From contig OY987242.1 of NCBI GenBank assembly GCA_963920765.1, forward strand, positions 13,540,002-13,604,001: DNA of 64,000 bases, given 5' to 3'. Made by a program: the position numbers and the translations under genes. The notes under the pieces are model-generated. The model was not told the origin of the DNA. It saw only the letters and a list, made by a program, of their open reading frames with translations, and did not search any database. Position 1 is the stretch's first letter. Every line of letters begins with the position of its first letter. The DNA is from Ulota crispa. Lineage: Eukaryota; Streptophyta; Bryopsida; Orthotrichales; Orthotrichaceae. Shown piece by piece: positions 2,341 to 51,776 of this stretch.

Positions 2341-3113
2341 TTAACCCCTGAGCGCCCAGGCCGTATCCACCAAAATCAGGGTTTTTGGAGACCGACAACT
2401 TTGATGCATCGTATCTCGGTCAATCGGATGATTCACAAAAAGTGACCATTGAAAATAGTGGAACACCTACTTAGAAAATGGCTTACAAATTTTGGGAACA
2501 ATTCACCATGGGAGATGGGAGATTATAACATTTGATCAAACAACGTGTGATGATAAAACCTCATTTTTTGGTAGGTAGTTGCTATTTGATGATTTTTACA
2601 AAATTTTATAAGCCCCGGATTCATCTCAAATTTTGTGAGCAGCAAGATCAAATGTGAATGCACACACTTATAAATTATTGAAGATTGCACTTCTTTTTAT
2701 GTCAAGTTTTAGGGCTTCAAATTGCTAATGCACGGAAAACAATGACCGGCACAATCAGTGACAGTTGCCATAATAAGGGTTTAGAACATGCTTGAACCCT
2801 TGCCAACAACTTTCCCGCTACCACAAAGCTTACACAAGGAAGCTTGCATGGAATATTGACCCGTTGCAACATGTAAAATGTTGCTTGCTAAACCGCCCCC
2901 GTTGCCTGGTACGGTGTTTCACCAAATCAAATCTCTTGCAGCGTTTATACAACAATTTGACTTTCCTCGCCATTACTCCATTGACATGCACAACTTAAAT
3001 GCTTTTGTAATTGTAATTTGTAATAAAACCAAAAAGTTAGATCTAGTGCCTCAAAATAAGACTTTAAAATCTGGAGCGACCCGAATCGAGTTGCTGGGCC
3101 ACTCAGGGGTTAA
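2341..3113. mobile_element. TTAA-flanked piggyBac-like non-autonomous element
   Basis: TTAA lies at both edges (2341-2344 and 3110-3113). The left terminus reads CCCCTGAGCGCCCAGG and the right one, reversed, reads CCCCTGAGTGGCCCAG. It is 773 bp with no transposase-like frame. The TTAA duplication with CCC(C/T)T ends is the piggyBac signature; the superfamily call is inferred because no transposase is present. Confidence 0.75.
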
Positions 3114-3624
3114 AGAAGTTTGAGTACGTATCTTATTTGAAAAGCAAGTTGGTGTTACAAGGATATAGTCTCTTGTAGGGTAAACAAAATTAAAGAGAAA
3201 CATTGTTTGTAGGTGGACTTTTGGAGCATGCAATATCGCTTTTAAAATCAAAACAGGACAATCTAAAGTTTTGTGAATAGGTGTGCAGGTCTCAAAACCG
3301 ATATGTGAAGGCTTCAAATATTATGTTTTCTTTCAAGATTTCTAGAATAAATTTAGTTATCTAAATTCAAATGGCAATTCAAAATTCCCAAATACAATCT
3401 TCCAATAGTAAACCTAAGCTCTTACATTTGTTGGACATTTGAAAAAATTGTCTTTTTACCATGGCCCCACAAACAAGAGATTGTAGTCATTAAGTCCAAC
3501 TTGAGAATTGGTATTCTTCCAATTGCTTGACATGCTATGATTGTGTGCTATGAGAAAATTTTAAGGTCCCAAGGAAACTTGTCATCCAAGTTTGACTTAT
3601 GTCAGATTTTTGGCTAGTGTTAGT

Positions 3625-3990
3625 GAGGATGCCCTTGTGGATTCTTCTACCTTGCGACATCTCCATTCAACTCCAGAAACGTCATTAAAGGAAACACGCT
3701 ATTTCTTTTTCTAATGTTGATCACTTGTTTCCTCCACTTGTGCAATTAAGTAAACTTATGTTCAACCAATGACAAATATCCTTGTCTATAAAAACAAATA
3801 GATTCTCCATCCTTGATCATCCTACCTACTTTTGCAGAAAGAAAGACAATATTTGAAGGAGTTTTGTTCACAAGAAAACTACAAATTTTGCCATGCCAAA
3901 AATACTATTTTGACTAGCCCATTCATTAATTACTACATTCTCATCCAAAATCCCCCAATCCATTATCTTCCCGTATACGTGGAGATGCTC
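3625..3990. mobile_element. MITE related to the 24861-25197 element (PIF/Harbinger-like)
   Basis: The interior matches the better-preserved copy at 24861-25197 over most of its length, including the segment around CCTACTTTTG and the terminal GAGATGCTC. The right end at 3990 is clear. The left end (GAGGATGCCC near 3625) is degenerate, and no target duplication is convincing. Confidence 0.55.
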
Positions 3991-4229
3991 TTGTATACCC
4001 AACAGCTGCTTACAGTACATTTGGTCACAAGTGCCTACACTTGAAACTACATAGTACAATGCAATATACAATATTGTATGTGATTTAGTTTGCTTGGTGA
4101 GGCTCGGATCTAGGGAAGTGCAGGATGTGATACGGGATAAGTTGGGCATGGTGTACATTTGATGAGAAGCTGGTGCATGTCACACTCAGTTGCAGAACAA
4201 CAAGATTATGAAGTCTCCCATACTTAGAA

Positions 4230-4547
4230 GGTAGGAACACCTATAAGCGTCAGTGTCCCCATAACCGTCACTTTTGAAATCTTAGAAAATTTGTGGAAGT
4301 GAATAGATGTAATGACAAGAATGTACAACATGTGAACATGAATTCTTAAAATGATTATGGGTGCAATGGCAGTTTGCTCTTTAAAAATTCATAACTTATT
4401 TTCATGGTATCTAAATAATACATTTGAAAGTGCAAACTTATTTTTTTCTGTTCCTAATAGGATCTTGTAATTTGCTAGATTGCTAGATGTTCATTAATAG
4501 TCATCATGTTCAAAACCCTTAGTTTGACGTTTATGGGTGCTCCTACC
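4230..4547. mobile_element. Inverted-repeat element, GGTAGGA family, uninterrupted copy
   Basis: The ends read GGTAGGAACACCTATAAGCG and, reversed from the right, GGTAGGAGCACCCATAAACG, about 318 bp apart. A second copy in the opposite orientation lies at 51045-51772 and carries a nested MITE. This copy preserves the unoccupied site for that insertion near 4410-4435. There is no coding content. Confidence 0.65.
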
Positions 4548-8873: not shown

Positions 8874-9814
8874 TTATCCCCTAACGTCCAAGCCTTTTTT
8901 CTGAAAATACATTGAAAACTGCCATTCTCAGTCATTTGATCCCAAGAACAACTCTTTTCTTTTTTCTACAAATCAAATTGTAGGATCTTGCAGTAGTCTT
9001 ATGCAAGCCATGGTAAAAGTTTCATGATGTTTAACCGAACAATATGAGAGATATGAGCATTTGAAGTTAGTAGAAAAAGTTCTTTGATCTTTGTTCAAAA
9101 TTTTTGAGTCCCTTTGACAGCATACTATGAACATTTTTTAAACCATGGATGCAAGTGAAATTTGTCCAACATGTGCTATCATGTTAGGCATATTTCCACA
9201 AGTTCTCATTGCCAACAAAAATTTTGAACATTCCATTCATGAGCTTGCATTGCAAACATGTGCTTGAAATTCACACTACATTGAGGTTTTTTGCAAACCA
9301 AAATTTCAATGGATGTTTTTAAACACACAAATCCTAACAAGAAATTGGAAGGTTTTATCTTTATTGACCACCACAAAAAAGAAATTGAAAAAAAACCAAG
9401 TCTCTAGTAGATATTGCAATTCAAAAGCTAATGTGTTTATCAAATACAATAATGAATTTATTTGATATATTATTGTTTTGGATATACCCCAATGAAGAGA
9501 CATACCTTCAACGATTGCCCTTGGGAAAAGTTAATGAAAAATGACATGCCCAAATTGCCCCTAATTTAAAAAACACTCATAAAACACTCATAAAACACTC
9601 ATAAAACACTCATAAAACACTCATAAAACACTCATAAAACACTCATAAATTTTGAATTGTAAATCCAATTTCAATAAATATCATATCCCACATAGCCTTG
9701 CAAAGTTATGTTTGAAGTATAAAATTCAAAACAATTAATCAAAAATCCTAAAAGAAAAAACTTGCCCAAAATTCATTTTATCCTCCATAGGGACAATGGG
9801 CATTCAGGAGTTAT
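8874..9814. mobile_element. piggyBac-like non-autonomous element with TTAT flanks
   Basis: The ends are CCCCTAACGTCCAAGCC and, reversed, CTCCTGAATGCCCATTG. The interior is closely related to 26832-27694, sharing for example CATGTTAGGCATAT and GCATTGCAAACATGTGCTTG. Both flanks are TTAT instead of TTAA (8874-8877 and 9811-9814), a direct 4-bp repeat. It carries an expanded 11-bp tandem array at 9570-9649 and no transposase frame. Confidence 0.72.
9570..9649. repeat. 11-bp tandem array inside a transposon
   Basis: The unit ACTCATAAAAC is repeated about seven times with no visible divergence. The related element at 26832-27694 has only one to two units at the matching place (about 27510-27530), so this is a local expansion. 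Confidence 0.85.
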
Positions 9815-10791
9815 ATTGAAATATGTTGTAATTAGTTCTTTTTTAAAAATTGGCCAGTTTCTTAGCGGGCAGTTTCAAGGCCAGGCCACAGAGGCCAGAA
9901 CTGCCAATTCAAACCGGCAATTTGTAAAAAACAGGTGACGGTTCTTACATGTTTGTGAAAAAATAGATTCTTTGACTTTCTAGGGCCCACTTCTCTAGTC
10001 TATACGAAACTGCTAATTTTGAGAGTTCACAAACTGCCATCTCAAACCTCCTACCTTAGAATGATGGAGAGATTATTTTTAAATGGATAATAGATGAAAA
10101 CTTGGAAAAGTAGTTGTCCCCAATTTTCCAAAAAGACAAGTCACTTCTCATCCGTTTCAAACTGCCAGTTTTGTGGCTGTGTGGCCCAGGCATCAGATTC
10201 AACCGATTAATTTCAACCAGGTGACAATTCACTAAATGCCGGTTCTTCCCGTGCATTGATAGGGACTACTCACTACTCACTACTGTAAAGAGTGAGAGCA
10301 TCAGAGCAGGAGCAGAGTTTGAATACAGAATGCTCGAGAGAAAGTAGAGGCGGAGATTCTGGGATGACCGTTTAAATTTAAATTTGAAGGTCTCGGTCTC
10401 CCCCCCACCTCGAGGTTATTTTAAATTCTGACCAATGCGAGGCTGCCTCGCTGCATGACTCATGAGAGCTCCGAGGGCGGCCTCGTCAAGGCGCTCTCTC
10501 TGGGGCTCCCTCTTTGCTTGCTACAGATTTTACTGTTGCTGCTTGTTTTTTGTTTACTAATTTCTTTTCTTGGGATCTAAAAGCGAACTTCTATGCTGGC
10601 CCTGAAATAGGAAAACCCAAAATCGATAAATAAATTCTCATTGCAATGTGTTTGTCACTTTTGAAATTTATTATTCCCAGCCAATATGGAAGTTTGCACT
10701 AAATTTGAAAAAAAAAATTTCAACAGGGGCTTCACTTTTCGTTTTCGATGTGGCTGTTGTTGCTAAGGTAACCTTACCCATACCCGAGAGT
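9815..10791. other. Spacer with a GC-richer patch
   Basis: Most of it is AT-rich. About 10290-10530 is clearly richer in G+C than its surroundings and contains TGACTCATGA and several CG dinucleotides. I see no exon pattern or matching termini; it could be a MITE or a promoter relic. Confidence 0.35.
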
Positions 10792-11678
10792 TTGACCCCT
10801 AAATTATCAAGGCCATTTTCTGCCAAAAACCACTCAAAATTGCCCTTATTGTTGCATTCATCAAAAATTTCAATAAAATGTTGTTCTTGAAAATTTAACC
10901 ATAGGATCTTGTAATGCACTTGTAGAAAAAGAAGTGGTAAAAATTTCGTGACATTTGGCCGTACGGATTGAAAGTTATGAGCATTTGAAGGGAAAAGTTT
11001 TTTTTTTCCATTGTGCCCAAAAATTTCAGATGGCTTTAATCACCATTTGCTGATTTTTTTGCACTAAGGACCTTGATGTTGTAATTTTATCTTATAGATA
11101 ATCAAGTTAGACATATATGTATACCAATTTTCAAGGCAATCAAAGACATGTAACACATCCTAAAGAATATTGCAACGCCACTATATGACAAGTTTTGCAA
11201 ATACACTATGACATTTTTTAGTGAAGTTTCCCACCACATGTGTTTAGATATGGAAAATCCAAACATTGTGTTTGAAGATTAACATGTACTTCAAATGTTG
11301 AAAAAAAAAAGTTAAAAAACTCTAAAACTCTAAAATTTAGAAGCTCCCAAAGCCCAATATGACCTCCTAATCAAAAATGAAAGGGGAAATAATGGGGACC
11401 ACCAAAGCAACATGTGGCAACTCCTCCTTATACCCTTGCCTTCAAAGTCAATATTTTCTCCCTTGCCTAAGCTGCACCTCGAACTGCTTTTGGCCAGAAA
11501 AAGCCCATAACTTGTGAACCGTGTGACATAATCACATGTTTTTTTGCATCCCACAAACCTTATACATTCCTACACACTCATAAAAAGTTTCAAAAAATAA
11601 TGTAAAAATTTGAAATCACAGGAGCCTACCCAAAATCCCAAAAGTCCCCTGCGGGGACTTTGGGGCTTTAGGGGTTAA
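10792..11678. mobile_element. TTAA-flanked piggyBac-like non-autonomous element
   Basis: The right end is perfect (GGGGCTTTAGGGG followed by TTAA at 11675-11678). The left end reads CCCCTAAATTATCAAGGCC after TTGA, one base from TTAA. The interior shares the motif ACCATAGGATCTTGT and following segments with the elements at 20509 and 26832. It is about 887 bp and non-coding. Confidence 0.68.
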
Positions 11679-14402: not shown

Positions 14403-14638
14403 TAAAAATTTAGCAAACTTTGTGTTTGTTTGAGAAGCATTTGAAAATTTCATCCATTTTTTTAGCCCAATTTTTTCAATGTTAAATATCCATTGTCAAA
14501 ATGAGGTAAGATTGTGACAAAACTTTGCCTACATAGAATTCTTTAAGAAGAACTTTCAAGAACCCACCAAATGTTGATTAGAGGTTTAGGGTGTTTCCAC
14601 TAAACCTCAAAAACTTCATCATGAGGAAACAAAGAACG

Positions 14639-14906
14639 CCATATTTGTTAATTTGGGACTAAACGTCCATTTTGGGATAAAAATAGGTTTAAGGTAATCA
14701 CCTTAAACCAAGCTCTAGATTTAAGTAGCATTTTTTTGGTACATGTGCCCTCACTTGAGAGGAGGAATTTGCGAGGGACAAAATCTTAGTGGCTCATACT
14801 GAATCTAATACCTTCAAATTTGGCGTTTAAATAGTTTAAGGTAACTTTTTGGGTTCAAGGTGAAGTCCAATTTGGGAATTGCGTTTTCCCAATTTAATGA
14901 ATATGG
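14639..14906. repeat. Inverted-repeat family ATATTAGGTAAATTGGG, copy 1
   Basis: It is related along its length to 19711-19960 and, in reverse, 37030-37276. Shared blocks include GAGAGGAGGAATTTG and GGTAACTTTTTGGGTT. The ends read CCATATTTGTTAATTTGGG and, reversed, CCATATTCATTAAATTGGG. It is a small non-coding MITE-like element of unknown superfamily. Confidence 0.6.
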
Positions 14907-14909
14907 CTT

Positions 14910-15615
14910 TAAAGTGCTTCATGTTTCCTATGTTGACCACTTGTTGTCCCCACTCGTTCAATTAGGTAAATTAATGTTGAACCAAAAATAAGTCTCCTCA
15001 TTTGCAAAAACAAATTAAATTCTCCATCCTTGATCATTGGACCTACTTTTGTAAAAATAACGTTTAAAGCATCTGCACCCTTGCACGCAACCTAGAGCTC
15101 TTTAAAGCACGTGTCCACAATGCTTCCATAACCACGGGTTTGCTCAAATCTTAGATTCCCTACCCTTGCCCTCAAGTAGGTACTAGCAAGCATTGAGAGC
15201 ATATCATAGAGGAGAGATGTCAAGCTTCAATCACAAGCCTCTTTTGTTGACCAATCAACAAGTTTCAATTGTTTTGAATTTGGACTTGTTAACAATTCAT
15301 CAAACCCTAAATGTTCCAATTTTGAGCTACAATTGAGTGAGCCCTATCTTGTGTAGGGCATTGGTGCTTCTATGGTGAGGCGCGTCAAATGGAGCGGCCA
15401 TGCCAAGGGCTCTTGTGCGACTATTGAACATGTGTGAGTGTGAATGCTCTTAGTATTTGAAAAAATGTTATGCACGGGGAACATACAATTTTTACCTCAT
15501 CTAAAACAATCAAAATAAATAGATAACAGATCTATGCATTAATTACTTCCTTCTCATCCAAAAGTCCCCTACCCAATTTCCTACCCAGTTGTTTCCCGTA
15601 CAGGTGAAGATGCTC
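14910..15615. mobile_element. Left-truncated copy of the GAGCATCT MITE family, interrupted
   Basis: The left part (14915-15063) and the right part (about 15500-15615, ending GGTGAAGATGCTC) match consecutive parts of the 24861-25197 element. The two halves are separated by a second MITE at 15067-15449. The far left end is missing. Confidence 0.5.
15067..15449. mobile_element. PIF/Harbinger-like MITE nested in a related MITE
   Basis: The ends are AAGCATCTGCACCCTTG and, reversed, GAGCATTCACACTCACAC. TTA is duplicated at 15064-15066 and 15450-15452. It is 383 bp and non-coding. Nesting is inferred because the flanking sequence rejoins into a copy of the 24861 family. Confidence 0.5.
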
Positions 15616-16175: not shown

Positions 16176-17103
16176 TTAACCCCTGAAGCACTGAACACCT
16201 TTTTTTGGCAACATGGCAATTTTGGGCAGCTCACTATCAATGGGGTTTTCATTTTTTTTTTTGAAATTTTCACACATTATGTGTCTAAGGAGTAGCTTTA
16301 AGGCCCAACAACTTTCATAACTTTTGACTTCATGGTTCAAAAATTATTGCATGATATGTACTTTTCTTTGCTTGTCAGACAGCAAAAAACTTCTTTAAAA
16401 ATTACATTTTTTGAATTTTTTTTTATTGAAATTGGTTCTTCAAATTTATATGTACTTGGGAAGCTTTGAATAATTTTTATTTTGATGAGTGAGATGAAAG
16501 TTATGAGGAGATTTTGTTTGCGGGCAGTTATGGATTCTCTACTCTAAAATAAACATTGAAGTCCATTGATTTACTCAATTTTCAGTATTTTAGAAAAGAA
16601 ATAAAACCAAAAAATATATATTGTTTATCATAACATTATAGCCTTTGGGATTGGAAATTTTCATTTCCATAATTAAGTTCTTAACAATTTAGTGGTTTGA
16701 ATCATTCTCTACTTCTTTTTACTTACTATTTTTTTCCATGTGTTTTACAATTCCAAATGATTTGAAAATTTTCAAGTGTATACCCACTTGCTTTGAAGAA
16801 CAAATCCAAAAAATTACAACTATTTTGGAGTTTTTTTCATACAAATATGACCTTGGGAAGTGCAATGGCCTAGATTTTTGCAAGGACAAAAATAGCTTTT
16901 TGTCAATTCAAACTCAAATATCCAACAATCTACATGGTGAAAACTCCTGAATTTATTTTCACATCTTTTGATACTAGTGTAATACAAGATCTTATGACTA
17001 TATTTATCACAAAAAAAAAAATCTAAATTTTGGTCCTTGTACTAGAAATGGCAATTTTGGAGCTGTTTTGATGAAAATTTGAACTTAGTGCTTTAGGGGT
17101 TAG
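16176..17103. mobile_element. TTAA-type piggyBac-like non-autonomous element
   Basis: The left TTAA (16176-16179) is followed by CCCCTGAAGCACTGAAC. The right end, reversed, reads CCCCTAAAGCACTAAG and is flanked by TTAG, one change from TTAA. The interior matches 33076-34031, including GGGCAGTTATGGATTCTCTA, and part of 20509-21478. It is about 0.93 kb with no transposase. Confidence 0.72.
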
Positions 17104-17601
17104 TTTACATAAGTTGTGTGAAGTATGGGTTTGATGGTACAAAACTGGAATTATAAAGCATGCAAAAAAGCTTTTCCGCAAAGTTTAAGCAGAAGTTCTT
17201 TACAATTTATAACTAAGATAGTAAACTATCATAACTACTAATGATGCACATATTTATCCAAGATATTAACTGTTATTATTTTTATTTATCTTGGCTTTGC
17301 ACTGGCTAATACAAAAAATGAATTAGTTCAATAAGGGACCACTCCAAGCGTTTAGGAGTTAAACCGCCTATAAGTTTTTACAAACCAATGATAACCTTTG
17401 ATTGTGATCTCTACCATCTCAAGTAGTTCAAAATTCATTGAATCGCTTCTACGATTCATCCGAGAAGCTCTTCAAATAGTATATGACAACTATTGCCTTG
17501 GATGAACCTCTACCCATTTTAAAACTTCAAAAATCCATTATCAGTTCTGAAAGAATCTGTAAAAGTGCGCCAAATTGGATTATGTGCAAATTCCATTTAT
17601 C

Positions 17602-17843
17602 TTAACCCTTGAGTGCCCAACCCAAATTCATGGAGTGTTGGATCTCATTGCAAATAATTTGGTATTACAAGTTCAAAAACAACATTTGGAAGAGTTAACC
17701 ATTGATATTGCTCAAGGATTAGGGTTCGCAGATGTTGAAAAATTTGGTAAATTTTTATTGCACAGATCAAAAGTTTATAATGGTTAAAGACAACAAATTG
17801 TTGAATATAGAGAAGATTTGGGACTTTGGCGCTCAAGGGTTAA
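17602..17843. mobile_element. Short TTAA-flanked MITE (242 bp)
   Basis: TTAA lies at 17602-17605 and 17840-17843, with ends CCCTTGAGTGCCCAACC and, reversed, CCCTTGAGCGCCAAAG. Its size is like that of the 32326-32575 element, but the interiors are not obviously alike. Confidence 0.75.
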
Positions 17844-17890
17844 ACAATGTTTTGAAGGTTTATATATCCTCCAAAAAGGAAATTCAGTCC

Positions 17891-18808
17891 TTAACCCCTA
17901 AGTGCCCAAGGCACCCAATTTGGGTGTCCAAAAAAGTGCATGAAACTTTGAAATTGTGTTGAAGGCATTGATTTTATTGTTTTCAAGTTTTTTTTGTGAA
18001 AGTTGTGTGCTAATGTTAGCTTCACCATCCAAATTCAACTTCCTCCATATCTTATTCCAATTATTTTTGGTGGAAAGTAAACCGCAAGCATATATTTTGT
18101 GTCATGAATAGTGTCATGAGAGTGTCGTGAACAGTATCATAGAGCCTATGAGAAGTTGCCACATTGAAAAGACAAGCATCAAGTTGAGCAAAAGGTGAAG
18201 ATTTCCTTTGGGCACTCCCTTGGGTAGTAAGGGCCTTTTTGTTGAAATTTTGACATCTAACAAAATCTAAAAGTGCTTTTGGACTAATTCCACTTGGAAT
18301 ATCTTTGTTATAAAAATTAGAATCCATTCATTGTTGAATTTTTTTTCACTCAAATTGGTTTTTGGTCAATAATTGAAGCTAATTTTTTTTTGTTGTATTA
18401 GTTGTTTGTACTTTGATAGTTACATTGCAGGCTCATTTGTGAAACTGTGGTCATGGATTTGGAAGGGGGGCCATTAGTTATGAAGTAACGACAATAAACA
18501 CTAAAGCATCCTAAGTGTTTGCTTCCCAATTTCGTATCCAAAAATTGCCAATTTGCATTTGAAGTTTTGGGTGGCTCCAAAAAAAACAAAAAATTCTACA
18601 CTAATCATCATTCAATCACAAATATCTTAAAATCTGCATGGCCATTTCGGGTTTTTTTTGGGTAGCACCATCTAGAAGCCTTGAAGTTCAAGATTCAATG
18701 GTTACAATTTATTTTTGATGTTTAATAATAATCTTGCAAGCACAATTCAAAAAATTCAAAACTGCCTTTCAAAAACAAGAAAAACACCCTTGGGCATTTG
18801 AGGGTTAA
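17891..18808. mobile_element. TTAA-flanked piggyBac-like non-autonomous element
   Basis: TTAA lies at 17891-17894 and 18805-18808, with ends CCCCTAAGTGCCCAAGG and, reversed, CCCTCAAATGCCCAAGG. It is 918 bp and non-coding. It begins 47 bp after the end of the preceding TTAA element. Confidence 0.75.
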
Positions 18809-19394
18809 AGAAAGGAAAATTAATACCTACTTGATGGTAAAGAGCATGTGACAAAAACCAAAGCAAACATTCCGGCTAACATGAATTTTTTTAGATTAAT
18901 GGCAATTTCTCTTACGCATCAGTCTACCTACTCACCTTGAAGCTGGGGAATGCTAAATCATGAGCAAGGATTCATGAGCCGTGAACTGTGAGCGTAATTT
19001 ATTTATCCAAAAAAATTAAATTCCACCTATAAATATGTACATAGGACCTTATGATTGCACATTATAAACATTTGTCTCATGAAAAATAATTGTTTTTTAA
19101 GTTTTTCCATTAATTTTGAGCTCAAAATTGATTCCCGCTCACAAAATCATGGCTCACCGCTCATAAGCTCACCGTTCTACGCTCACAAAATAGGTTACCT
19201 CCCTTGAAGCTACCAATTTTTGATTCAAAGCGTTCAAGCAGCGGGTAGCGTTTTCAAATGTGATCAAATTTCTAAACCAAGCTTTATACTGAAAATCAAT
19301 TGCAAAAAGATCTAATTCTTATAAACTTTCATCAAAGAAGCAATGAATACCACACTGCTAGATTTTAGTTCTTAGCAGATGTTTAGCAACTTTA

Positions 19395-19650: not shown

Positions 19651-19710
19651 CAACTATTTTGATAAAAATTGAATTCTTGGGATAGGTAACATTGTTGGGT
19701 GCAATTAACG

Positions 19711-19960: not shown

Positions 19961-20039
19961 CATAATTGGAAAACCTCATTGCTATCCTTGATCTCCTTCT
20001 TCATTCCTTATTTACAAAAAATTAACTCTTGTACACTAA

Positions 20040-20346
20040 ACAATGCATTTAGGTTGCCCCTCAGTAATTTCTTACATTTTACACTATATAGATACTTCTT
20101 GATATTACAATAATTTTCATGAGTAATTTCCACAATAAGTAAATTTTAACAACAACAAGGACTTAGCTACAACAACAATGCTGCAAGGAAAAAAAGAAAA
20201 AAGAAAAAAGCATTGTCCAAGTTGTAAGCCATGTGAAATTCTAATATTTAAAAAGTTGCATGCGCCTCCAAGTGGCCAAATAGTAAGTCATGAGGTAACT
20301 TTTCAAGATAAGACAATCTAATTGTTAAGGCAACTTAAATGCACTA
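20040..20346. mobile_element. Inverted-repeat element, GTGCRTTTAGGTTGCC family, intact copy
   Basis: It matches 6834-7636 minus the nested MITE. The ends are AATGCATTTAGGTTGCCCC and, reversed, AGTGCATTTAAGTTGCC. The sequence GCAACTTAAATGCACT near 20331-20346 is the unoccupied counterpart of the nested insertion at 7097. Confidence 0.62.
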
Positions 20347-20508
20347 TTTTGGTGTAGTTATAGATTCTCCACTTTTTGACATCAAAACTTTTAGTTAAAA
20401 AAAAAAAAGGCTCCCAATATAGTCTTATTTTAATAAGCTTCTGGGAGCATTATTGAGGCCATAAATGGCTGAGATTATTACTCAAACTATCCAGCCTCAA
20501 ATCCTAGG

Positions 20509-21478
20509 TTAACCCCTAAAGGCCCAAGCCCTTTTATTCCGGTGAAAGTCACTGAAAAAATGCCACTTCTTGGGGAATAAGTAGAAAAGTAGGATATAAA
20601 TAAAATTTGCTTTGCAAATCCAACCATAGGATTTTGCCCTAGACTATGGGAGGTACTTGTGAGAAAAAAATCAGCTCATTCTTGATGTAGAGGAGTGAAA
20701 TATTGACATTTGAAGTGAAAAAAAAAAGCTTTTTTCCGTGTTGCCCAAAAAATTTAGAAGCCTTTGACCGCTCCTATATCAAAAAAGATTCTCTACGCAA
20801 AGTTGAGGTTTATTTTTTCCATGTAGAAGACCAAGTAAGGATTGTGTGGGAGAATTTTCAAATGAATTGGAGGTGTGAATCATACTTTGTAAAATCTTGC
20901 AATGCCATATGGCCATGAAATTTACATATCCACTGGCAAAATTGGAGGATTTATGTAAAATTCAGAAAAATATGAATTACTTTGATCCAAATGGTGAAAA
21001 CCAAGGAATATTAGTCTAATACAACTTAGAAAAAAAAAAGTCAAAAAACAAATACACAAACGGCTCAAAAAATTAAAGCACCAAATTTTACAAGGGCCAA
21101 AAGGAATGGAGGTTTGGGAGTCCCATACCTACCTGCAAACTAAAACTTCTCACTCATCAATCAAAATTGAATGATTCAAGTTTCACATATATAAATCTAA
21201 AGAACCACTTTCAAGTTTTTTTTTTTTTTTTTTAAATGCAAGTTTTAAGGAATTTTTTGGGTTGCCTGGATTGCTTGCCCTCCCCTGTTTTTCAAAAATT
21301 CATGCATAACTTCCTCAATAAATGTTGGAATGAAGAAAAAACTTAGATGCTTGCATAAGTCTTGGAATTCCCCAACTTTAATAAAAGTTTCAAAAAATCA
21401 CACAAACTAGTTTAGTTATAGGTACATGCCTAAAATCCATTTTTCCCCCAAGGGGATAGTTGGGCTTTTAGGGGTTAA
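20509..21478. mobile_element. TTAA-flanked piggyBac-like non-autonomous element (best ends)
   Basis: TTAA lies at 20509-20512 and 21475-21478, with ends CCCCTAAAGGCCCAAGCC and, reversed, CCCCTAAAAGCCCAACTATC. It is 970 bp. The left part matches the reversed right part of 33076-34031, and the right part matches both arms of 32572-33079. No transposase is encoded. Confidence 0.8.
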
Positions 21479-21486
21479 ATTGACCC

Positions 21487-23025: not shown

Positions 23026-23028
23026 TAA

Positions 23029-24857: not shown

Positions 24858-24860
24858 TAA

Positions 24861-25894: not shown

Positions 25895-26835
25895 TTTACC
25901 CCTAGGGACAGAAAGTGTCTTCTAGCAGTCCATCACTCTTACTTGAAGTGTTGTAATATTTGTATTTATTGTCTATATCTGGCAAAGTTGTGCATACTAG
26001 TCAAATTGTTATGATAGAATTTTCAAATCAATCTTAGACAGATTGAGTTTGTGAAAGCCATTCAAAATTCACAGCGTCAATTTGAGTTCACCAAATTGCA
26101 TTCTAATAATTGCAAATTTGGAGGCTTGTATCTTTTTCATCAAATGTTTGTTTCCAACAAAAAAATTTGGCTTTTGTTCCCCTTAGTAATTGCGGTAAAA
26201 TTTTTAGGTCAATTGAATTTTTCTTGAATGTTTGAGAGCAACTCAAAGTTCAAAATCCACACATTTTTGCATTACAATGAACTTTGGTGGCTTATAACTT
26301 CTTCATAGAAACTTTGTTTTCAATATTTGGAGTTGAAAAAGTTGCACATGCTAGTCTAGTTATTGTCGTTAAAATCCATATCAATAAAAGTCATGAGTGA
26401 ATGAGAAGCATTTTAGTAGAGGGAGGTTTAGCCATAGATGTGATTTTTTGCTACTTTTTCATTGTTTTTTGACTTTTCAAAACAATTTTGCAAACAAAAT
26501 GAGTGTATTGACTGATGCTTTCTTTCACCAATGTGTTTGTATATTGGTATGAACCAATTTTCATATTTTCTTTCATTTGAGTAGGTTTAGAAATTAAATT
26601 TCACCTCCAAATGTGTTTTTAGGAAAATTTCAGCATCTTTTTCCAACACTAAAACATTATAATCTTCAAATCTACGTGGTCAAATAACCCCAAATTCGAT
26701 CCCCACCATCTACAACATGCACACTACAAGATTGTATGGATGGGATTTTCATACTCCACTAGCATTTAGACTTGCAACACTTGAAAAACATGGATGCTTT
26801 TAGGTCTCTTTGGACCTTAGGCAAGGAGGGGTTAA
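25895..26835. mobile_element. Probable TTAA-type element sharing its right TTAA with the next one
   Basis: The right end GGAGGGG abuts TTAA at 26832-26835, which is also the left flank of the 26832-27694 element. The left end would be CCCCTAGGGACAG after TTTA at 25895-25898. The length (941 bp) fits the class, but the termini pair only over CCCCT, so this is tentative. Two related segments around GGCTTGTATCTTTTTCATC recur about 165 bp apart inside it. Confidence 0.4.
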
Positions 26836-27694
26836 TCCCTAAATGTCCGAGCTATTTTTTTTGGAAAAAATTGAAAATGACTATTTTCAATCATTTAATT
26901 CCAAGTACAATGTTTTTCTTTTTTTTACAAATCCAACCATAGGATCTTGTATTTGACTTATGCAAAGAGCTAGGGTGAAAGTTCCATGAGTTTGACTGTA
27001 TAGATCTCAAAATATGAGCATTTGGAGTTAGTATAAAATATAATTTGACCTTTGCCCAAAATTTTGAGGCCCTTTTAACCACATGTGGTGGACATCTTTT
27101 ACATTGTGGATGCTAGAAAGAACATCTAGCATGCTCTAAATCATGTTAGGCATATCTTCACAAGTTCTCATGGCCAACAAAGATTTGAAACATCCCCTTC
27201 ATGGGCATGCATTGCAAACATGTGCTTGAAATTGAAACAATTTCCAATGGTTGTTTCTGAAAAAGAAAAGCCCTCATGGCGGGATTGGAGGGTTTCATCT
27301 TTATTGACAACCACAACAAAAAAATGAAAAAAAATCAATTCTTTAGTAGATATTGTAATTCAAGAGCTAATGTATTTATCAATTACAATAATGTATTTAT
27401 CTAATAAATTACTGTTTTGGATATTCTCAAATGAATGGTCATGCCATGGTTGCCCTTGGGAAAAGTCAATGGAAATTAGCATGCCCAGCTTGCCCCTAGT
27501 TTAAAAACCCATAAAACACTCATAACTACTGAACTATAAATCCAATTTCAATAAGAATTAAGATCTCCATGTAGCCCTTGCAAAACTGTACTTTGAAAAG
27601 AAACTTCCAAATAATTAAACAAACATTCTATTAGAACAAGTATACCCAAAATCCATTTTGTCCCTTGCAGAGACAGTGGGCTTTTAGGAGTTAA
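26832..27694. mobile_element. TTAA-flanked piggyBac-like non-autonomous element
   Basis: TTAA lies at 26832-26835 and 27691-27694, with ends TCCCTAAATGTCCGAGC and, reversed, CTCCTAAAAGCCCACTG. It is a close relative of 8874-9814 and shares ACCATAGGATCTTGT with the other subfamilies. It is non-coding. Confidence 0.75.
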
Positions 27695-28727
27695 GTAGAA
27701 TTTCTCTTTCAGCTAAAACCAACTTTTGAAGCAAAGTGTCACTTTCAAGGCTTTTGATTATTTTTTTGCCATGTAAGAGGTTTTAAACAATTCAAGACTT
27801 TTAAATGACTCAAGACTTGGGACATGTTAAAGTGTGAATTGTTCTTTTAGAGCTAGTTCAAAAGTTTAGTTGAGGAAAGCACCAAGGATCAATGGTAGGA
27901 TCATTTATGAATTAATCATGGTGACATGCTGAAACGAACACAAAATGGTGATTTTTTTACAATAGCACATGTTGAACTGCTTCTCTCACCAAGACAAACG
28001 TATACATTATCATCGCACATTCAATTTCCATCATTGTGCATATCAAATATACATTCTTGAATGCAAACTGAATGGAGATATGCTTGCATTATGACAATCA
28101 CCATGCCCTCCTTTCACGGGGTGCACTCCCCATTTTCTTGTAGTATACGTGCAATCAAAATCTTTGACCCCTATTTTTATATTGTAAGAAATCAATTAAA
28201 TAGCTTGAAAAATTTATGGTGTGTTCTTCCATATTGAAAGTTTACATTACGAATTATTGAAAATTTTCTTTACTCTATATAATTACTTACAAATTTTGGA
28301 AGAAAACAAATATGCTGTATAGCTGAAAAAAAGTTTTGACCACATACATTATGTGGTAAATTTTATTTTTTAAATTATTTTTAAATTGCCAAAAAATAAA
28401 AGCTGGTTCTAGTTTGTCTATACTAAAAATTGGATACAATTGTCATTCAAATGCAATCTTGATAAATATTTGAAGTGAAAATTTAGTCATTCTAGTGCAA
28501 TTTTCAATTGCATATTTGGATATCTTGTTTGATTTATTTGAATCCTATTTTTTTCACGTAAAAGATGTAATGATTTTGTGAGGCCACCCAAAATTTTGGA
28601 GCTAAATAAAACTTTATTAAAAAGAAAATAGGGGGTAGAAATTTTATTTGATTGCACGTGACCTCCAAAGGTTACATTGAGTGACCTCCCCGTGCCTCCT
28701 TTCCCATCCATACTTCTAGTTTAGATG
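27695..28727. other. AT-rich spacer, no gene seen
   Basis: Only short frames lacking protein features are present. No termini were recognised. Confidence 0.4.
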
Positions 28728-29627
28728 TTAACCCCTGAGCAATGATCAGGGAGAACCGGCGGTTAGTGTATTGTTGGTTGAAATTGTAAAAAAAACAGGT
28801 TGAAACTGAAACTTCCAGATTAAAAATCGGTCATTTTTCTCCAAAATCTTATTATAGAATATTATAGTGTATTCTTAGAAGTTCCACAAGAAATAATTGA
28901 TCCATGCTAGTGAAAATCCAGTTGAAATGGGGAAATGTTGGATTTTAGCTGGTAAAGCTAGAATTTCTCCCTGACCCTTGCCCTTGAGGGCCCAACTCAA
29001 AATCGCTCTGGTGCGGGCCTGAGAGATCATTTGAGATTGAAAAGTTTGTAGCATATGCAAAAATACGATCCATGCGTATGAGTCTTTGAAACTAGTTGTT
29101 ACCTTGAATCTCAAGATCTGTCTCAAATTTAGGGCAGTTTAACCCTACCATTTCCAATATTATAATGGTCAAAGGGTGGTTGACATTTGGGTTAGGGTCT
29201 AAATTTCTAAAGCAATGGTATCCATTGATTTAGGGTTTAGGTGATGGAATTATGCGACAATATTTTGGGCCAAGGTTCTACAATGGGTATACCCACTACC
29301 CTCCAATTTTCAATTTTTTTTGACAAGATTCACAATACCAAATCTGACCACAAAAATAGACAACCCAAAATCAACCACTAGGAACCCCGTATGGGTGGGG
29401 TCTCCTCATTTGCCCAATACTGCTCCAAAACTACTTTTTTCATCATTGAATTGAGTCTGACACAACATACGACCATCAAAACCATGGAACACCACTCCCT
29501 TTCATCTAATCCCCACTTTGCATACCATGTGTACCTTCAATTCCCCTAGTCACTCCATCTACAAATGCAACAGTCCAATTAAAATTTTGAGCGCCATATT
29601 TTAGGCGCTAGGGCACTCAGGGGTTAA
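28728..29627. mobile_element. TTAA-flanked piggyBac-like non-autonomous element
   Basis: TTAA lies at 28728-28731 and 29624-29627, with ends CCCCTGAGCAATGATC and, reversed, CCCCTGAGTGCCCTAGC. It is 900 bp and non-coding. The next element of the class begins only 3 bp after its right TTAA. Confidence 0.73.
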
Positions 29628-29630
29628 CAC

Positions 29631-30294
29631 TTAACCTCTTAAGGCCCAAGGGGCTCAAACAGCGCCCCTTTGCATTGTATTTTGAGATGCTTTTTGAGAT
29701 GCTTGATTTTTTCTACAAGATTAAGTTTAGTATTGATTATTTTAAATTGTTTTTATTGAAGTCTTATTTTAGTATCAAAATTCCTATTTTGAAAATGAAC
29801 AATTATGGTTTGTCTATTTAAAATTTTGTGCAAGGGTATCCTTGCAAATCTTCACTTCTTAGTGTTGAGAGCTCTTGAAAATGAGCCTCACATACACTAA
29901 AACTTGGAGAAACAATTACATTAGAAATTTAATTTTAAAAATTGGAGACTAGATTTTGAGGAGACGTAAATTGATTAAGGTTATGCATGTAGTATTTTAT
30001 ATACTCATATTTTTTGGTATCCTCAATTTTAAATTTGAGATGTGAAAAGAGGATTGAAAGGCTTCAAATCACTTTCACAGTTTTAACACCCTCATGATCA
30101 AATCTTACAGTCTTTTAATCTATAAGTGATGTTTTGTGTTATTTTTTCCCATATATTCTCTATCATATCTAGCTTGAATTTATATGGTTACATTTCAAAA
30201 AGAATTGATAAAATTTATCAAAATGTTAGCATTTTGTTCATTCTAAAGCAAGTTTTGAGATACTTAGAAAAGTCAAGGGGCGTTGAGAAGTGGA
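29631..30294. mobile_element. piggyBac-like non-autonomous element with decayed right end
   Basis: The left TTAA at 29631-29634 is followed by CCTCTTAAGGCCCAAGG. The interior matches 35986-36662 in the same orientation, for example GAGCCTCACATACACTA. The right end near 30275-30294 (CAAGGGGCGTTGAGAAG) is degenerate and has lost its TTAA. Confidence 0.58.
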
Positions 30295-30653
30295 GCAACA
30301 TTTTAGACCTTGGTCAAGTAATTCCAAGAATCTCAAAAGAAGAAGCAAATAGTGAGGATGGGTATGAATGTATGCCCACTAACAACAAAGAAATAACCAC
30401 ATGGAGAATCAATTTGAAAGTTGGAAGCAAAAAACAATTGATCCTTTAAACCTATTACATGCACATTGCAAGCAAACATGGAAGAATTTAATATTGCAAA
30501 GTAGTGTAACATTTAACAAATGACTATCATTTCATTAAATTGAAAAATCCTTTTCTAAACTACCACAACTAAGTGGTACTCTTACACAAAGAAAGACTTT
30601 GTGAAAGCACGCCTCAAAAGTTGGGTATATCATTTAAGGATTAAACAACGGCA

Positions 30654-31088
30654 TTAGCAAAAATTTGAGCCCTCCAAGAGCCCCCTACAAAGTCTCTAAA
30701 GGGCCTTAAAACATGTACTTACTACAACAAACAAACCACCAATCCCTTGTTTCCGCTCACCCTTTGAATTCAATATAATCATGAAAATTACATTTTTATG
30801 TTATCCCTATTGGACAAAAACTATAGGTACAAAAGTACAATAGGACCATACATTCTATTTTACTTTATTTGAATAGAAGAGTGAAGTATTTGGATAGTGA
30901 GTAGTGAGCACATTTACATATTTTATGAGTACAATTCCATTTTTATTGTTTGGGTTGTGCATTTGGCTTAGGTCCTTCATACAAGATAGCAATGGGAATG
31001 AGTGCCCTTTTCTTATACTCACGCTAGCCAATTAATAATTTGGTTTATCAAACCTAGGGGGCTCTTGGAGGGCTCAAAATTTTGCTAA
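30654..31088. mobile_element. MITE with 33-bp terminal inverted repeats
   Basis: The ends begin TTAGCAAAAATTTGAGCCCT and, reversed, TTAGCAAAATTTTGAGCCCT, and continue as near-identical inverted copies for about 33 bp. It is 435 bp with no coding content. No clear target duplication is seen. Confidence 0.65.
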
Positions 31089-31304
31089 AGGTCTGTACCA
31101 TTTCTTACAAATGTAGCTACATTTGACAAAAAAATTGCCAAAAAGTATTTATAGCTACAAAATAGTGTGCATATCGTAATATAACGTCTAGCAAGTTGAA
31201 CTAATTATGGAAATCATACATGGGATCACTCATGCTCACACCTCAAGATGGTATTAATCATGATTTTCTTAAAGTTTTTTTTATTGTTAATAGAGCGACA
31301 TACA

Positions 31305-31520
31305 CCCAACAATACAAGCAAGTAAGGAAAAAATGGATAAAATCGGATAGAATGAACAATGTGTGGACGTACATCTATAAGATTACCTCATTTTAGTAAC
31401 TTTCATTCAAAATATTTGTTTGGAGAGGGATTTGGCAATTTCGTCCATTTATTCACCCAATTTTAATATTATGATAGCCTATGTTAAATTAGGGTAAGAT
31501 TTACACAAACTTTTGCCAGA
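31305..31520 (+). repeat. Unnamed dispersed repeat (copy 3 of 4)
   Basis: It shares several blocks in order with 5386-5610, including AGGGATTTGG and a GGTAAGATT-like right part. The class is unknown. Confidence 0.42.
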
Positions 31521-31555
31521 AAAAATAACCCTGGTATCAGTTACTAAACATTGCC

Positions 31556-32176
31556 ACAGGATTATGGTTAAGGGGGAGAGCGACAGTTTTGCCAGGACTT
31601 GTCAGAAATGCTGAACATGGAAGTTGTGGAATCATTGTAAGTTCATATCAGAAGGATGACAGTGCCAGGACCCCAGCATTCCAGCAGCAGGTAATGAGAT
31701 GTTCGCCCAACAATATTACCAATCCGTATGTGATGGAATTAATGAAACTTCACATTTTATAACCATGTTTTTTCATTTTATGGAAAGAACATTTCTTCGA
31801 TCCATTGAATATTTCTATTAACAAAGAAAAACAAGCAGCTACATCACATGAAGTTGTGTTCTTATAGCACGGCCTTGTTTCTCAAATAAGGACGTCCCTA
31901 GTTGAGGCACAAGTAAGTATCCTAGAAACAACAAAGGGAGGGTCACATGGAATTTCAAAAACAACCTCCCATAACAATTTGCAACCTCAATGCACAACCG
32001 GTGTTGAAGCTGACAGAGAGCACACGGAGGTTGATTGCAAGAGGGATGAAGGTATTACAGAAGGATTTTTTGAAAATCGCTTGCATTTATCAACTAGACT
32101 TAAAGCAACTAACTCTCCACGCTCTACAAACTTCCTCTTAGTGCTGGCTAAGACTGCTTGTGTGCCAAGGCCATGA
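31556..32176 (+). pseudogene. Exon-like fragments of an unidentified gene
   Basis: Three stretches read like exons in sequence that is less AT-rich than its surroundings. The first is about 31565-31695 (frame containing ATVLPGLVRNAEHGSCGIIV, then GTAATG). The second is 31868-31912 (HGLVSQIRTSLVEAQ, between a TATAG acceptor and a GTAAGT donor). The third lies within about 31998-32140 (LTESTRRLIARGMKVLQKDF, then a stop). The first two join in phase. I do not recognise the family, and no upstream or downstream exons are visible. It may be a captured or duplicated gene fragment, or chance. Confidence 0.3.
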
Positions 32177-32325
32177 GCTTAATGTTTGACTTTGCGGGCT
32201 GATTGGAGAAAAGTTTCTCCCATCATACTCAAACCAACCTCCAATGTATTGTAATTGTCCCCTCATCTCGGCTAGATTGAGGACACCCTTAGGTAGCCAA
32301 TCAAATTTCTATAAGATATTTTCTC

Positions 32326-32575
32326 TTAACCCTTGAGCATCCAAGAGACATTATAATATCTCTCCAAAAGTTGGGTCAACGCAAGTTTGACCGAGGTAAT
32401 CTCATTGCTCCTTTGGTGAAACCAAATCCAATTGAGTCCATCACAATGGAGATGCTTCCTATTAATAATTTGTATGGTTCCAATCTTGTAGATTGTATTT
32501 TTCAATCCATAGGGGCACTTTGACTGCAAGTATGTTGAACTTTTTTGGTTTCAAGTCTGGGCGCTTAGGGGTTAA
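32326..32575. mobile_element. Short TTAA-flanked MITE, first of a chain of three
   Basis: TTAA lies at 32326-32329 and 32572-32575, with ends CCCTTGAGCATCCAAGAG and, reversed, CCCCTAAGCGCCCAGAC. It is 250 bp. Its right TTAA is also the left TTAA of the following element. Confidence 0.75.
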
Positions 32576-33079
32576 CCCCTAAAGGATTGTTGTCCCTTTG
32601 AGGAGACAAATGGGATTTCATGCATGTACTTATAACTAAACTGCTGTGTGTGCAATTTTCCAAAACTTTTATGGGAGATGGGGAATTCAAAGCTTTGCAT
32701 GGACATCTAATTTTTTCTTCATTGCATCATTTATTGAAGGAGTTAAAAGTGAATTTCTAGAAAATAAGGGAAGGCGGAGAGTCCAAAAACTTCTTCAAAA
32801 ATTGCATTTTTTAAAATAAAAATATGAAACAGGTTCTTTAGACTTATATATATATATATTTTTGCGGGGAGCTTTGAATCAATTTAGATTGAAGAGATTA
32901 AAGTTATGAGAAGTTTTAGTTTGCGGGTAGGTATGTTTTTAATTAGATGCCCATGCAGAGCTTTGAATACTCCATTGTTCATAAAAGTTTCAAAAAACTA
33001 CACAAAGTAGTTTAGTTATAAGTGCATGTTCAAAATCCCATTTGTCCCCTCAAAGGGACAACAGTCCTTTAGAGGTTAA
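32572..33079. mobile_element. TTAA-flanked fold-back element, second of the chain
   Basis: TTAA lies at 32572-32575 and 33076-33079. Both halves are the same kind of end: CCCCTAAAGGATTGTTGTCC on the left and, reversed, CCTCTAAAGGACTGTTGTCC on the right. The similarity runs on for at least 130 bp. Each arm resembles the right end of 20509-21478, so the element looks like two right ends head to head. Confidence 0.78.
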
Positions 33080-34031
33080 CCCCTAAAGGACCATTTTCCC
33101 TTTGGAGGACAAATGGGATTTCACGCCTGTACCTTTGGATAAGCTACTTTGTGTGATTTTTTGAAACTTTTATTAAAGGTCAAGAATTTAGAGATATGTG
33201 TGGGCATCTGATTTTTTCTTCATTATGACATTCAACAAAGAAGTCATGCAAGTGAGTTTATCAAAACTAGGGGAGGAGAGGCAGTTCATGCAGCCCACAA
33301 AACTTCTTTAAAATTGGCATTTTATAAAAATAAAAACTCGGAATTGGTTCTTTAGATTTTTTTATATGTGGGAAGCTTTGAACTTGGCTTTGAATCATTC
33401 AATTTCAATAAATGAGATGAAAGTTATGAGGAGTTTTTGTTTGAGGGCAGTTATGGATTCTCTACTCCAAAATAAACTTTGAAGCCCCTTTATTTTACTG
33501 AGTTTTTAGTATTTTGGAAAAAAAGTTAAAGTAGAGGAAGTAGATTGTTTATCACAACATCATAATCATTGGAGACTTGCATTTTTCATTTTAGTAATAA
33601 AATTCTTAACAATTTAGTGTTTTGACTCATTCTTTGCTTCTTTTTACTTACTATTTTTTTCTTATGTGTTGTATAGTTCCAATTGATTTGAAAATCCTCC
33701 TACATATAGCTAACTTGATCTCTTATTTGAAAAAATCAAAGCACAACTTTGGGTAGAGAATCTTTTTTCATGTAAGAGTGGTCAAATGCTTCTGAAATTT
33801 ATTGGTAGTGAGGAAAAAAAAATTCCCTTCACTTCAAACATAAATATCTCCCTCCTCTCCATCTAGAATGACTTGATTTTTTTCCACATAAGTACCTCTT
33901 GTAGTTTAAGGCAAGGTCCTATGGTTTGATTTCTAAAAATAAAATAAAAAATCTACCTTCTTGCTCATCCCCTAGAAGTGGTAGTTTTCAGTGATTTTGG
34001 CAAAAAAATGGCTTGGTCCTTTAGGGGTTAA
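33076..34031. mobile_element. TTAA-flanked piggyBac-like non-autonomous element, third of the chain
   Basis: TTAA lies at 33076-33079 (shared) and 34028-34031, with ends CCCCTAAAGGACCATTTTCC and, reversed, CCCCTAAAGGACCAAGCC. It is 956 bp, in the opposite orientation to 20509-21478, and related in its interior to 16176-17103. No transposase frame is present. Confidence 0.78.
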
Positions 34032-35985
34032 TACAAAGCTTCTTCCTCTAAAATCAATGTCTACAGCCAACAAATAGTTCCAAAGATCTTTTTTCATTTG
34101 ACAATAACTACTCCTCTTAATGAGCATAACTTTGTGCATATCTTTGTAAGTATTTGCCATACAATGCATAAAAAAACGTTCAAATCTATTATATTAATTG
34201 CAAAGTGTCACTACTCTCTATCACAAAATTGGTCACGTTTTCATCCTATTGTTTCATCCCTTGTTTTTCATCCAATTATTCTCATCACTTTCATATCTTT
34301 ACTTTGCTTGACTGCAACCCTAATTGCACCTAAGAGGTATTGTCCGGTGAAGGCATGTGTTCTAGGTTCAATTTTCCTATTCAAATGGCCAAATCAACTG
34401 GCAATTGATAGGCTGAATTTAGTCATTAGGATATTCAATATGAAGCTCAAGGGATTACTAGATCATCTTTTCAAGAAGTTAATGTATGGGGTGGTGACTA
34501 GAGATGTTTGAACAATTAAGTTCCACTAGTGTGATTTTCTACATGCACAAATATTCATTGTGCTACTAGAATTGATTCTCATTGTGACAATAACAATACA
34601 AAAAGAATTACGATTTCCATTGATCAAATGATTTGTGTTGATCATATGGTTACAATTTGTAAGCATCAAATATTGCTTATATAAAATCATCATTTTCATC
34701 ACGTTTGTGTTGATGTTGCATTGCAACTGGCTTTATTCTAGTATTAGATAAAAGATAAAAAAAAAGTACTGCTTGTATGTACCACTCAAGGCAAATTCCC
34801 ATGTTGGCATGGTCTCCAAATTGTAAAACTTAGAAACAACAAAGGAGTTTGCTTTTAGTAAGATTGTTATGATACAATATGCCAGTTTCATCTATCATCT
34901 CAAAAGATACTTTGACTTGATTTGTTATGGAACGTGGGACATATTCCGTTCCTTTCTATGGTGAGGGGTTAGCAAATAACAAAAGACCCTTAGCATTATC
35001 GATGCTCTTCTATGGTTCTTGGCCAAATATTATAATTTTTACCCTGCTTAGTGGAGTTTCATAAATGGCTTGAGAATGTTCTCGGGCCAAGGGAATATTG
35101 CATATTCTTTGTCTTTTATTTCTCTTTTGTAACACAAAACCATTTCTTCGAATTGGTGAACTCACTGTTTTGAAATACATTATGTATTTGTTTTAGATGT
35201 TAATGATTTAGCTTAGGGTTCCTTTACAATAAGAGTCAAGGCTAATTTTTGAAATCAAGAAGGTCCTAATTTTTGAATAACTGGTTGAATTATTAAATAA
35301 TAATCAAAGGCCTTTTCACTAATTTTGAAAAAAAAATCATTACAAAAAGACTCCAAAAATTGGACTTACTAAAAAAGGTTAGCTTGTTGCATAGGAGTTG
35401 TTGTTGGATTTTATTTAAGATGAAATTGTTTTAAAAAATATATCAAATTTAGTATTTTTGAAACAAGTGCCTATGGCCCTAATACACATCAAAAATACAA
35501 ACCCATTACGGGGTTTCAATTATGATATTCCACATCAATTTCGTTCAAGTGAACTAGATTTGTGAACAACCCAGCCAAGTCACTGTGTGAACAAGCCATG
35601 ACGACCTCTTGGGGTTGTGATTGCATATTCACATGTGCATAACAAGTTGTTCACAAGGACTTGTTCATTGCCTATTTAAGATGTTTGGACCCTATACTAA
35701 ACATGCTCTCAGGTGGACTACAAAAAAATAAAAAGTATCAAAAGGAGAAATAATGAAATTGACCCCAAAAAAAATGGATGTTTTTCAAAAATCACATATA
35801 TTTGCACAAAATAATTCCAATGAATAACGTTTCTAGGCAGGTGAAAAATAGATAATCACTCTTCGTGTTTTTTGAACAATCTACGATAATGAAGCTCATG
35901 TCTCAATGGCTCAACTTGCTGTTTGTTTAAATATTTTCTCCTTTGAAAATTTTAAGGCTTGTAGACGTGGCCTCAACTTTTAGGC
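34032..35985. other. AT-rich spacer, no gene accepted
   Basis: A plus-strand frame of 137 codons at 34098-34511 has no recognisable motif and ordinary desert composition. I saw no paired termini. Confidence 0.4.
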
Positions 35986-36662
35986 TTAATCCCAAAACGG
36001 CATTGAGGACAGAATGCGATTTCAACCAGTTTTTGAAATTAAAAAAAACCTTACCAAAATTATTATTTACCAAAATTATTATTTTGAATATTTTATTTTT
36101 TTGAAAAATTATTTTTGAAGTTTAGTTTGAGCATCAACAATATGATTTTGCAAATGATTGATTATGATATTTTTATTCAAGGTTTTGTGCATGGGTGTCC
36201 ATTGCAATCTTGACTTTTTAGTGTTATGGGCTCTTGGGAGTGAGCCTCAAATACACTAGATCTTTGAGAAAAAATCATATTAAAAATTCATTTAAAAAAA
36301 TTGTAGAGTAGATTTTGAGAAGTCATAAATTGACTAGGTTTATGCATGTTAGGGACTTAGGGTCTTTGACCTCACATTTTTTTGGTGACCAAATTTTTAA
36401 ATTTGACATGTGAAAAGAAAATTGGAAGACTTCAAATCACTTTCATAGTTTTAACACCCTCATGATTAAGCATTATAATCTGTCAATCCATAAGAGATAT
36501 TGTGGTGTTTTCTTTTCTAATGTGATCTCTAACATGTCTAATTTGATTTTGTAAAATTACAACTCAAAAAAACTCATACAACTTATCAAAATGTTGACTT
36601 TTTGTTCAAACTAGAACAAATTCCTACAAGCTCAGGAACTTCCAAGGTCGTTTTGGGGTTAA
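35986..36662. mobile_element. TTAA-flanked element, CCCAAAACGRC subfamily
   Basis: TTAA lies at 35986-35989 and 36659-36662, with ends TCCCAAAACGGCATTGAGG and, reversed, CCCCAAAACGACCTTGG. It is 677 bp. The interior matches 29631-30294. It is non-coding. Confidence 0.73.
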
Positions 36663-50185: not shown

Positions 50186-50215
50186 TGTAAAAATATTTTT
50201 TCGTCGTTTTCGAGA

Positions 50216-51772: not shown

Positions 51773-51776
51773 TTAA

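Follow-up and report, generated by a model that had tools for sequence, protein, structure and literature searches.

The part from 2341 to 36662 of a 64,000-nucleotide stretch of Ulota crispa DNA (contig OY987242.1; the whole stretch is called the window below) contains 14 densely placed elements with C-rich ends bordered by TTAA or a variant of it. Judging by these features they are probably non-autonomous DNA transposons of the piggyBac superfamily, similar to miniature inverted-repeat transposable elements (MITEs), in plant nuclear DNA. The piggyBac transposons are well known from animals and little described in plants, and they are a widely used tool that can leave no scar. Membership of the present elements is argued from the ends and the target site, because no transposase was found.

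Both ends were identified by direct reading in 13 of the 14 elements, which are named here by their start positions and measure 242–970 bp including TTAA; the element at 29631 has a clean end on the left only, its right end being decayed. Together the 14 elements, 29631 included, occupy 10,469 of 34,322 bases. The end motif CCCCTRAGTGCCCAAG, with at most three mismatches, was counted 12 times in the window, where 0.35 would be expected, and none of 100 shuffles reached 12. The elements which the first-pass annotation had placed at these starts were recovered with a matching right end in all cases except one, and its size range of 0.24–0.97 kb was right. Its description of the ends as common to all copies held chiefly for the first 8 bp, CCC(C/T)T(A/G)A, the sequence beyond being variable and the ends of 35986 fitting poorly. 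A looser TTAA-end pattern, devised after the ends had been viewed, gave 10 inverted pairs spaced 200–1000 bp apart, compared with a mean of 0.1 and a maximum of 3 in 200 Markov shuffles; all 10 pairs lie within positions 1–37000 of the window and none in 37001–64000. The first profile scan for further ends returned 202 matches against 95–136 in 20 Markov sequences and was too loose to be used for counting elements. In public collections the end motif was found in no viral contig and in 4 bacterial contigs, where about 15 chance matches are estimated for a collection of that size (by hand, with uniform bases).

Target site and terminal bases

At the 26 ends of the paired elements the four target-site positions carry T in 24, T in 26, A in 25 and A in 25 cases, respectively, and the bases outside TTAA are mixed. 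TTAA stands on both sides of 10 of the 13 elements, and the flanking four bases are identical in 11. The three departures from two-sided TTAA are 8874 (TTAT/TTAT), 10792 (TTGA/TTAA), and 16176 (TTAA/TTAG). In the first of them all 4 bp of a variant site are directly duplicated, while TTGA and TTAG look like later one-base changes. Read on the opposite strand TTAT is ATAA, which a cabbage looper study gives, beside TTAA, as a typical piggyBac duplication (PMC8634313), and the variant sites reported for animal piggyBac elements include TTAG and CTAA (PMC10813416). The outer base of TTAA is kept on the left of 13 and on the right of 11 of the 13 elements. Among six relatives the identity falls from about 65% inside the elements to 25–28% outside TTAA; homology stops at this site.

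Neighbouring elements share one TTAA at 32572 and another at 33076, which leaves 24 distinct junctions for the 26 ends. A third common site is the left TTAA of 26832; it also serves as the outer TTAA for an end-like sequence that extends leftwards from 26835 and for which no partner was found.

The first, second, and third bases are C at 24, 24, and 25 of the 26 ends, and the fourth base is C at 22 and T at 4. The best ungapped match between the terminal inverted repeats (TIRs) is 14–17 bp long in 8 of the 13 elements and 88 bp long in the fold-back element 32572. The piggyBac elements are characterized by TIRs of 12–19 bp, the terminal motif CC(C/T)T, and TTAA duplications (PMC2872659). Most of the present ends are one base off this strict motif, like those of coral TTAA MITE family III, CCCCTCAGTGTCCG, which are the closest printed ends met and which, starting with CCCCT, were counted by their authors as consistent with piggyBac (PMC2872659).

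Palindrome near base pair 25 and the assignment to piggyBac

A palindrome centred on bp 24-25 was observed at one end each of eight different elements, namely, at the right ends of 2341, 10792, 20509, and 32572 and at the left ends of 17891, 29631, 32326, and 33076, and its letters differ between lineages. The scored set included 26 ends, 25 of them from the 13 paired elements (the interrupted left end of 28728 was left out) and one from 29631 (left). At least 70% of pairs with a centre at 23.5–25.5 were found in 8 of these 26 ends, compared with 4.1% of comparable places further in; the opposite end scored 0.22–0.44 in six of the elements and 0.67 in the fold-back element 32572. When the centres were binned by five half-steps, seven ends fell into the bin 24.5–26.5 and at most four into any other of the 40 bins. 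By an alternative score over bp 13–46, 8 of the 26 ends exceeded the 95% level of shuffles and 4 exceeded the 99% level, against 1 and 0 ends for bp 47–80 and against 9.2% and 1.3% of 371 element-interior windows. Counted by lineage, as grouped by hand with the related right ends of 2341 and 28728 treated separately, the palindrome is present in 5 of 13 (P = 1e-4; P = 1.5e-3 if 4 are counted).

In piggyBac itself a dimer of the cysteine-rich domain (CRD) binds a palindrome at bp 17–33 of one end, with the centre at about bp 25, the minor groove is narrowed near bp 25, and in cells the native enzyme required unequal ends (PMC7351741). Weight is given to the palindrome of the present elements because its position agrees with this CRD-dimer site, and as a piggyBac-like feature it is considered suggestive and post hoc.

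The preference for piggyBac over a Tc1-type origin, expressed already in the first-pass annotation, was borne out by the target site. According to a Tc1/mariner-type (Stowaway-like) reading the duplication would be TA, the ends would start with ACCCCT, and the outer T and A would reflect a target preference; a TA indeed lies inside every TTAA, and since TTAA is palindromic both readings look alike at intact copies. However, the outer T is found at 24 of the 26 ends, so that the conservation of outer T and A at almost every end, as earlier claimed, stood, and the T-TA-A context surrounds 11 of the 13 elements compared with 9.3% of the TA sites of the region, element junctions being left aside (binomial P = 3e-10, to be read with the reservation that the elements are not wholly independent and two junctions are common to neighbours). 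The TA reading also does not predict the 4-bp TTAT/TTAT at 8874. Furthermore, 0.63 common junctions are expected under TTAA targeting and 0.061 under TA targeting, and the probability of at least two, worked by hand, is about 0.13 and about 0.002, respectively; the two observed are therefore ordinary for TTAA targeting and unlikely for TA targeting, and a Tc1/mariner-type origin is regarded as very unlikely. A Harbinger/Tourist (PIF/Harbinger) type with a 3-bp TTA/TAA (TWA) duplication would account for the TTA in the left flank, yet the base following the right TTA would then be unconstrained; this base is A in 11 of the 13 elements, making this type hardly credible.

The elements might also have been mobilised by another superfamily directed to TTAA, either Sola3-like or undescribed, Sola3 being another TTAA-targeting group. 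Target site and short ends do not suffice to name the enzyme, and in the repeat table of a fern Sola accounts for 2,739 copies against 1,230 of PiggyBac (PMC6890710); the C-rich first bases and the palindrome near bp 25 fit piggyBac, and such an origin is judged improbable. Kolobok elements produce 4-bp TTAA-specific duplications as well, but their termini are 5'-RR and YY-3' (PMC9587614), whereas the termini here are CC...GG, and pyrimidines at the first two bases of all 26 ends contradict this origin, which was rejected as scarcely conceivable. Of these readings piggyBac has the strongest support, given TTAA on both sides of 10 of 13 elements, the duplicated TTAT at 8874, and homology that stops at TTAA.

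Several observations weigh against this assignment. The strict piggyBac motif requires T as the fourth base, which only 4 of the 26 ends have. Three elements, 8874, 10792, and the interrupted 28728, have a best ungapped TIR match of just 7-8 bp; in 26832 the match extends over 49 bp at 55%, which is no clean TIR. The palindrome zone was chosen post hoc, when the ends had already been viewed; in the mean over the 26 ends the value at centre 24.5 (0.385) is equalled at centres 90 and 103.5 and slightly exceeded at centre 88 (0.392); four of the eight palindrome-positive ends belong to the main family described below and are homologous to one another; and other ends are below the threshold, for example, both ends of 17602, 16176, and 35986. 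A comparison of the joined flanks of the 13 elements against the window revealed no convincing paralogous empty site in it. Three junction-spanning matches were rejected: that of 8874 (64%, E = 3e-5) is good in the first ~25 bp only, far from the junction, with the site unaligned; that of 33076 has a left flank which is itself an element end and only weak likeness past the junction; and that of 32572 consists of its own flank in the left half and the start of a related element in the right half.

Finally, no Pfam transposase was detected up to E = 0.1 in six frames of 2341-3113, 8874-11678, 16176-21478, and 26832-36662, a search of 24 frame-stretches covering all 14 elements with stops read as X, in which the HMMER filters may lose weak matches. 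This agrees with the earlier statement that no copy encodes a transposase, and the partner must lie elsewhere or have been lost. The sole Pfam match in those frames was a Helitron_like_N match (E = 0.002) at ~34.39–34.55 kb (34392-34547), under the Pfam cut-off and outside the elements, just to the right of 33076-34031.

Under the piggyBac assignment, a DDD transposase of piggyBac type, whose gene would lie elsewhere and may since have disappeared, would have bound the element ends in trans, excised the elements via a TTAA hairpin, and inserted them at new TTAA sites, in some cases at a TTAA adjoining an earlier copy. The palindrome at bp 24-25 would then be the site of a dimeric transposase domain, so that the two ends would differ as they do in piggyBac. 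More speculatively, and with considerable doubt, the elements might represent a piggyBac lineage native to a non-flowering land plant and having ends of its own, combining CCCCT tips and a one-end palindrome at bp 25, in which the letters changed and the symmetry was kept as if following the dimeric DNA-binding domain from one transposase to the next. Should the genome then contain an autonomous copy encoding a DDD transposase, a plant-derived piggyBac system would be at hand. The element ends could be used to fish for the matching transposase, and the fixed palindrome predicts which portion of the end the enzyme would read. The dense native population suggests a past spread of such elements in the host plant.

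MITEs of the TTAA/piggyBac kind are already known, and the present elements are a further member in a land plant. The coral CMITE families have the same TTAA duplication, short C-rich inverted ends (family III, CCCCTCAGTGTCCG), non-coding nature, and tandem arrays, the last named in a figure legend (PMC2872659), but they are ~100 bp long, have a core conserved across families, and reside in animal hosts, whereas here the length is 0.24–0.97 kb, several families are present, and the host is a plant. With piggyBac (IFP2) the elements share the TTAA target and perhaps also unequal ends and a one-end palindrome at about bp 25 (PMC7351741), and with the superfamily as a whole the first bases CCC, CCCTT being the most frequent motif among those of animals (PMC10813416); they differ in that no transposase was found, in that the tips are mostly CCCCT rather than CCCTT, and in that no sequence relation past the tips is shown. 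With the piggyBac MITEs of angiosperms the elements probably share the superfamily (PMC10004981).

The native piggyBac record in plants looks thin, and the first-pass annotation was by and large justified in remarking that such activity has seldom been described in land plants, with the correction that PiggyBac does appear in plant lists: one review counts it among seven angiosperm MITE superfamilies (PMC10004981), another names it among plant superfamilies (PMC10794571), and it has 1,230 fragments in the fern repeat table (PMC6890710). Two papers that treat piggyBac as a tool for plants (PMC10905368, PMC4309413) leave native elements unmentioned in the excerpts consulted. Among the top matches in the literature on plant piggyBac and TTAA MITEs no plant family with these ends was met, and piggyBac is not named in the search results for the Isoetes genome literature. 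Repbase and P-MITE are collections where such families may be filed.

Families, age, and individual elements

The element population is old and mixed, with more than one diverged family. In all-against-all comparison seven elements (8874, 10792, 16176, 20509, 26832, 32572, and 33076) form a main family with 58–76% identity by BLAST stretch, including six elements of 863–970 bp and one fold-back element of 508 bp. A second family is formed by 29631 and 35986, which are 74% identical over 577 aligned columns (~565 bp of interior). Of the subfamilies distinguished by the first-pass annotation this last pair was retained, while 16176/20509/32572/33076 and 8874/10792/26832 merged into one family, since 10792 is about equidistant from 8874, 16176, 20509, 26832, and 33076 (59–63% over the longest stretch); 8874 and 26832 are 70% identical across almost their entire length. 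The right-end ~50 bp of 2341 and 28728 are 76% alike. For 17602, 17891, and 32326 no interior relative was found among the elements, except for one 33-base match between 17891 and 16176; kinship between the short elements 17602 and 32326, whose interiors are 48–50% alike against 38% in one shuffled control, was considered unconvincing and dropped.

In the close-pair comparison the identities and Kimura distances were, respectively, 76% and 0.30 for 8874/26832, 71% and 0.37 for 29631/35986, 69% and 0.41 for 20509/33076, and 64% and 0.49 for 16176/33076, and the distance between the arms of the fold-back element 32572 was 0.18. The wave is regarded as old because these four pairs differ by 24–36%.

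Orientation within the main family is given relative to 20509..21478 (970 bp, plus strand), which has TTAA on both sides. Also on the plus strand are 8874..9814 (941 bp), with the variant site TTAT duplicated on both sides; 10792..11678 (887 bp), with TTGA on the left, TTAA on the right, and a near-perfect right-end palindrome at bp 14-34; and 26832..27694 (863 bp). On the minus strand are 16176..17103 (928 bp), with TTAA on the left and TTAG on the right, and 33076..34031 (956 bp), the left TTAA of which is common with the fold-back element. The latter, 32572..33079 (508 bp), is composed of two ends, each of the main family's right-end type, with arms of ~139 bp that are 84% alike; this element and all those that follow are listed without strand.

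Outside the main family, 2341..3113 (773 bp) is TTAA-flanked and has an imperfect TIR of ~17 bp and a right-end palindrome with its centre at bp 25, and 17891..18808 (918 bp), likewise TTAA-flanked, has a left-end palindrome with the same centre. Two short TTAA-flanked elements are 17602..17843 (242 bp), with the ends CCCTTGAG, and 32326..32575 (250 bp), with a left-end palindrome centred at bp 24.5 and a right TTAA common with 32572. The second family includes the TTAA-flanked 35986..36662 (677 bp; ends TCCCAAAACGG and CCCCAAAACGA) and its relative 29631..30294, with the left end TTAACCTCTTAAGGCCCAAG and an approximate right limit. The TTAA-flanked element 28728..29627 (900 bp) is broken near its left end by a nested hAT-like miniature element at 28740..28980 (241 bp), which has an 8-bp target duplication with one mismatch, CCCCTGAG/CCCTTGAG, and the ends CAATGATCAGGGAG and CAAGGGTCAGGGAG when read inward.

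Other sequences in the window

The plant host is indicated by a Plant_NMP1 exon (E = 6e-16) within 57.2–57.8 kb, close to which a tandem array of 8.7 copies of a 17-bp C-rich unit lies at 57803-57948; a myosin motor exon and an exon of the ALG6/ALG8 family are also present in the window. An accD-like fragment was detected at 50.05–50.19 kb (TIGR00515, E = 4.5e-17), and its peptide presumably resembles that of non-flowering plants. A nuclear accD gene at this place, which would have hinted at Isoetes, was considered and dropped, because the piece directly beside the fragment reads by eye like the end of psaA on the minus strand, as we assume; we take 50055-50330 to be plastid DNA copied into the nucleus, in which two separate plastid pieces are joined. 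No tRNA was found in the window by ARAGORN, and Rfam gave no match at gathering scores.

Repeats of other kinds were noted as well. A three-copy family at 14630-14912, 19702-19965, and 37032-37269 is 70–79% alike, its copy at 19.7 kb having inverted ends, and a repeat common to the intergenic and gene-side parts is present at 4228-4544 and 51045-51774 in opposite orientation (80–83% alike). At 30654-31088 there is a 34-bp inverted repeat, 97% complementary, with arms 367 bp apart, which is possibly a MITE of another type.

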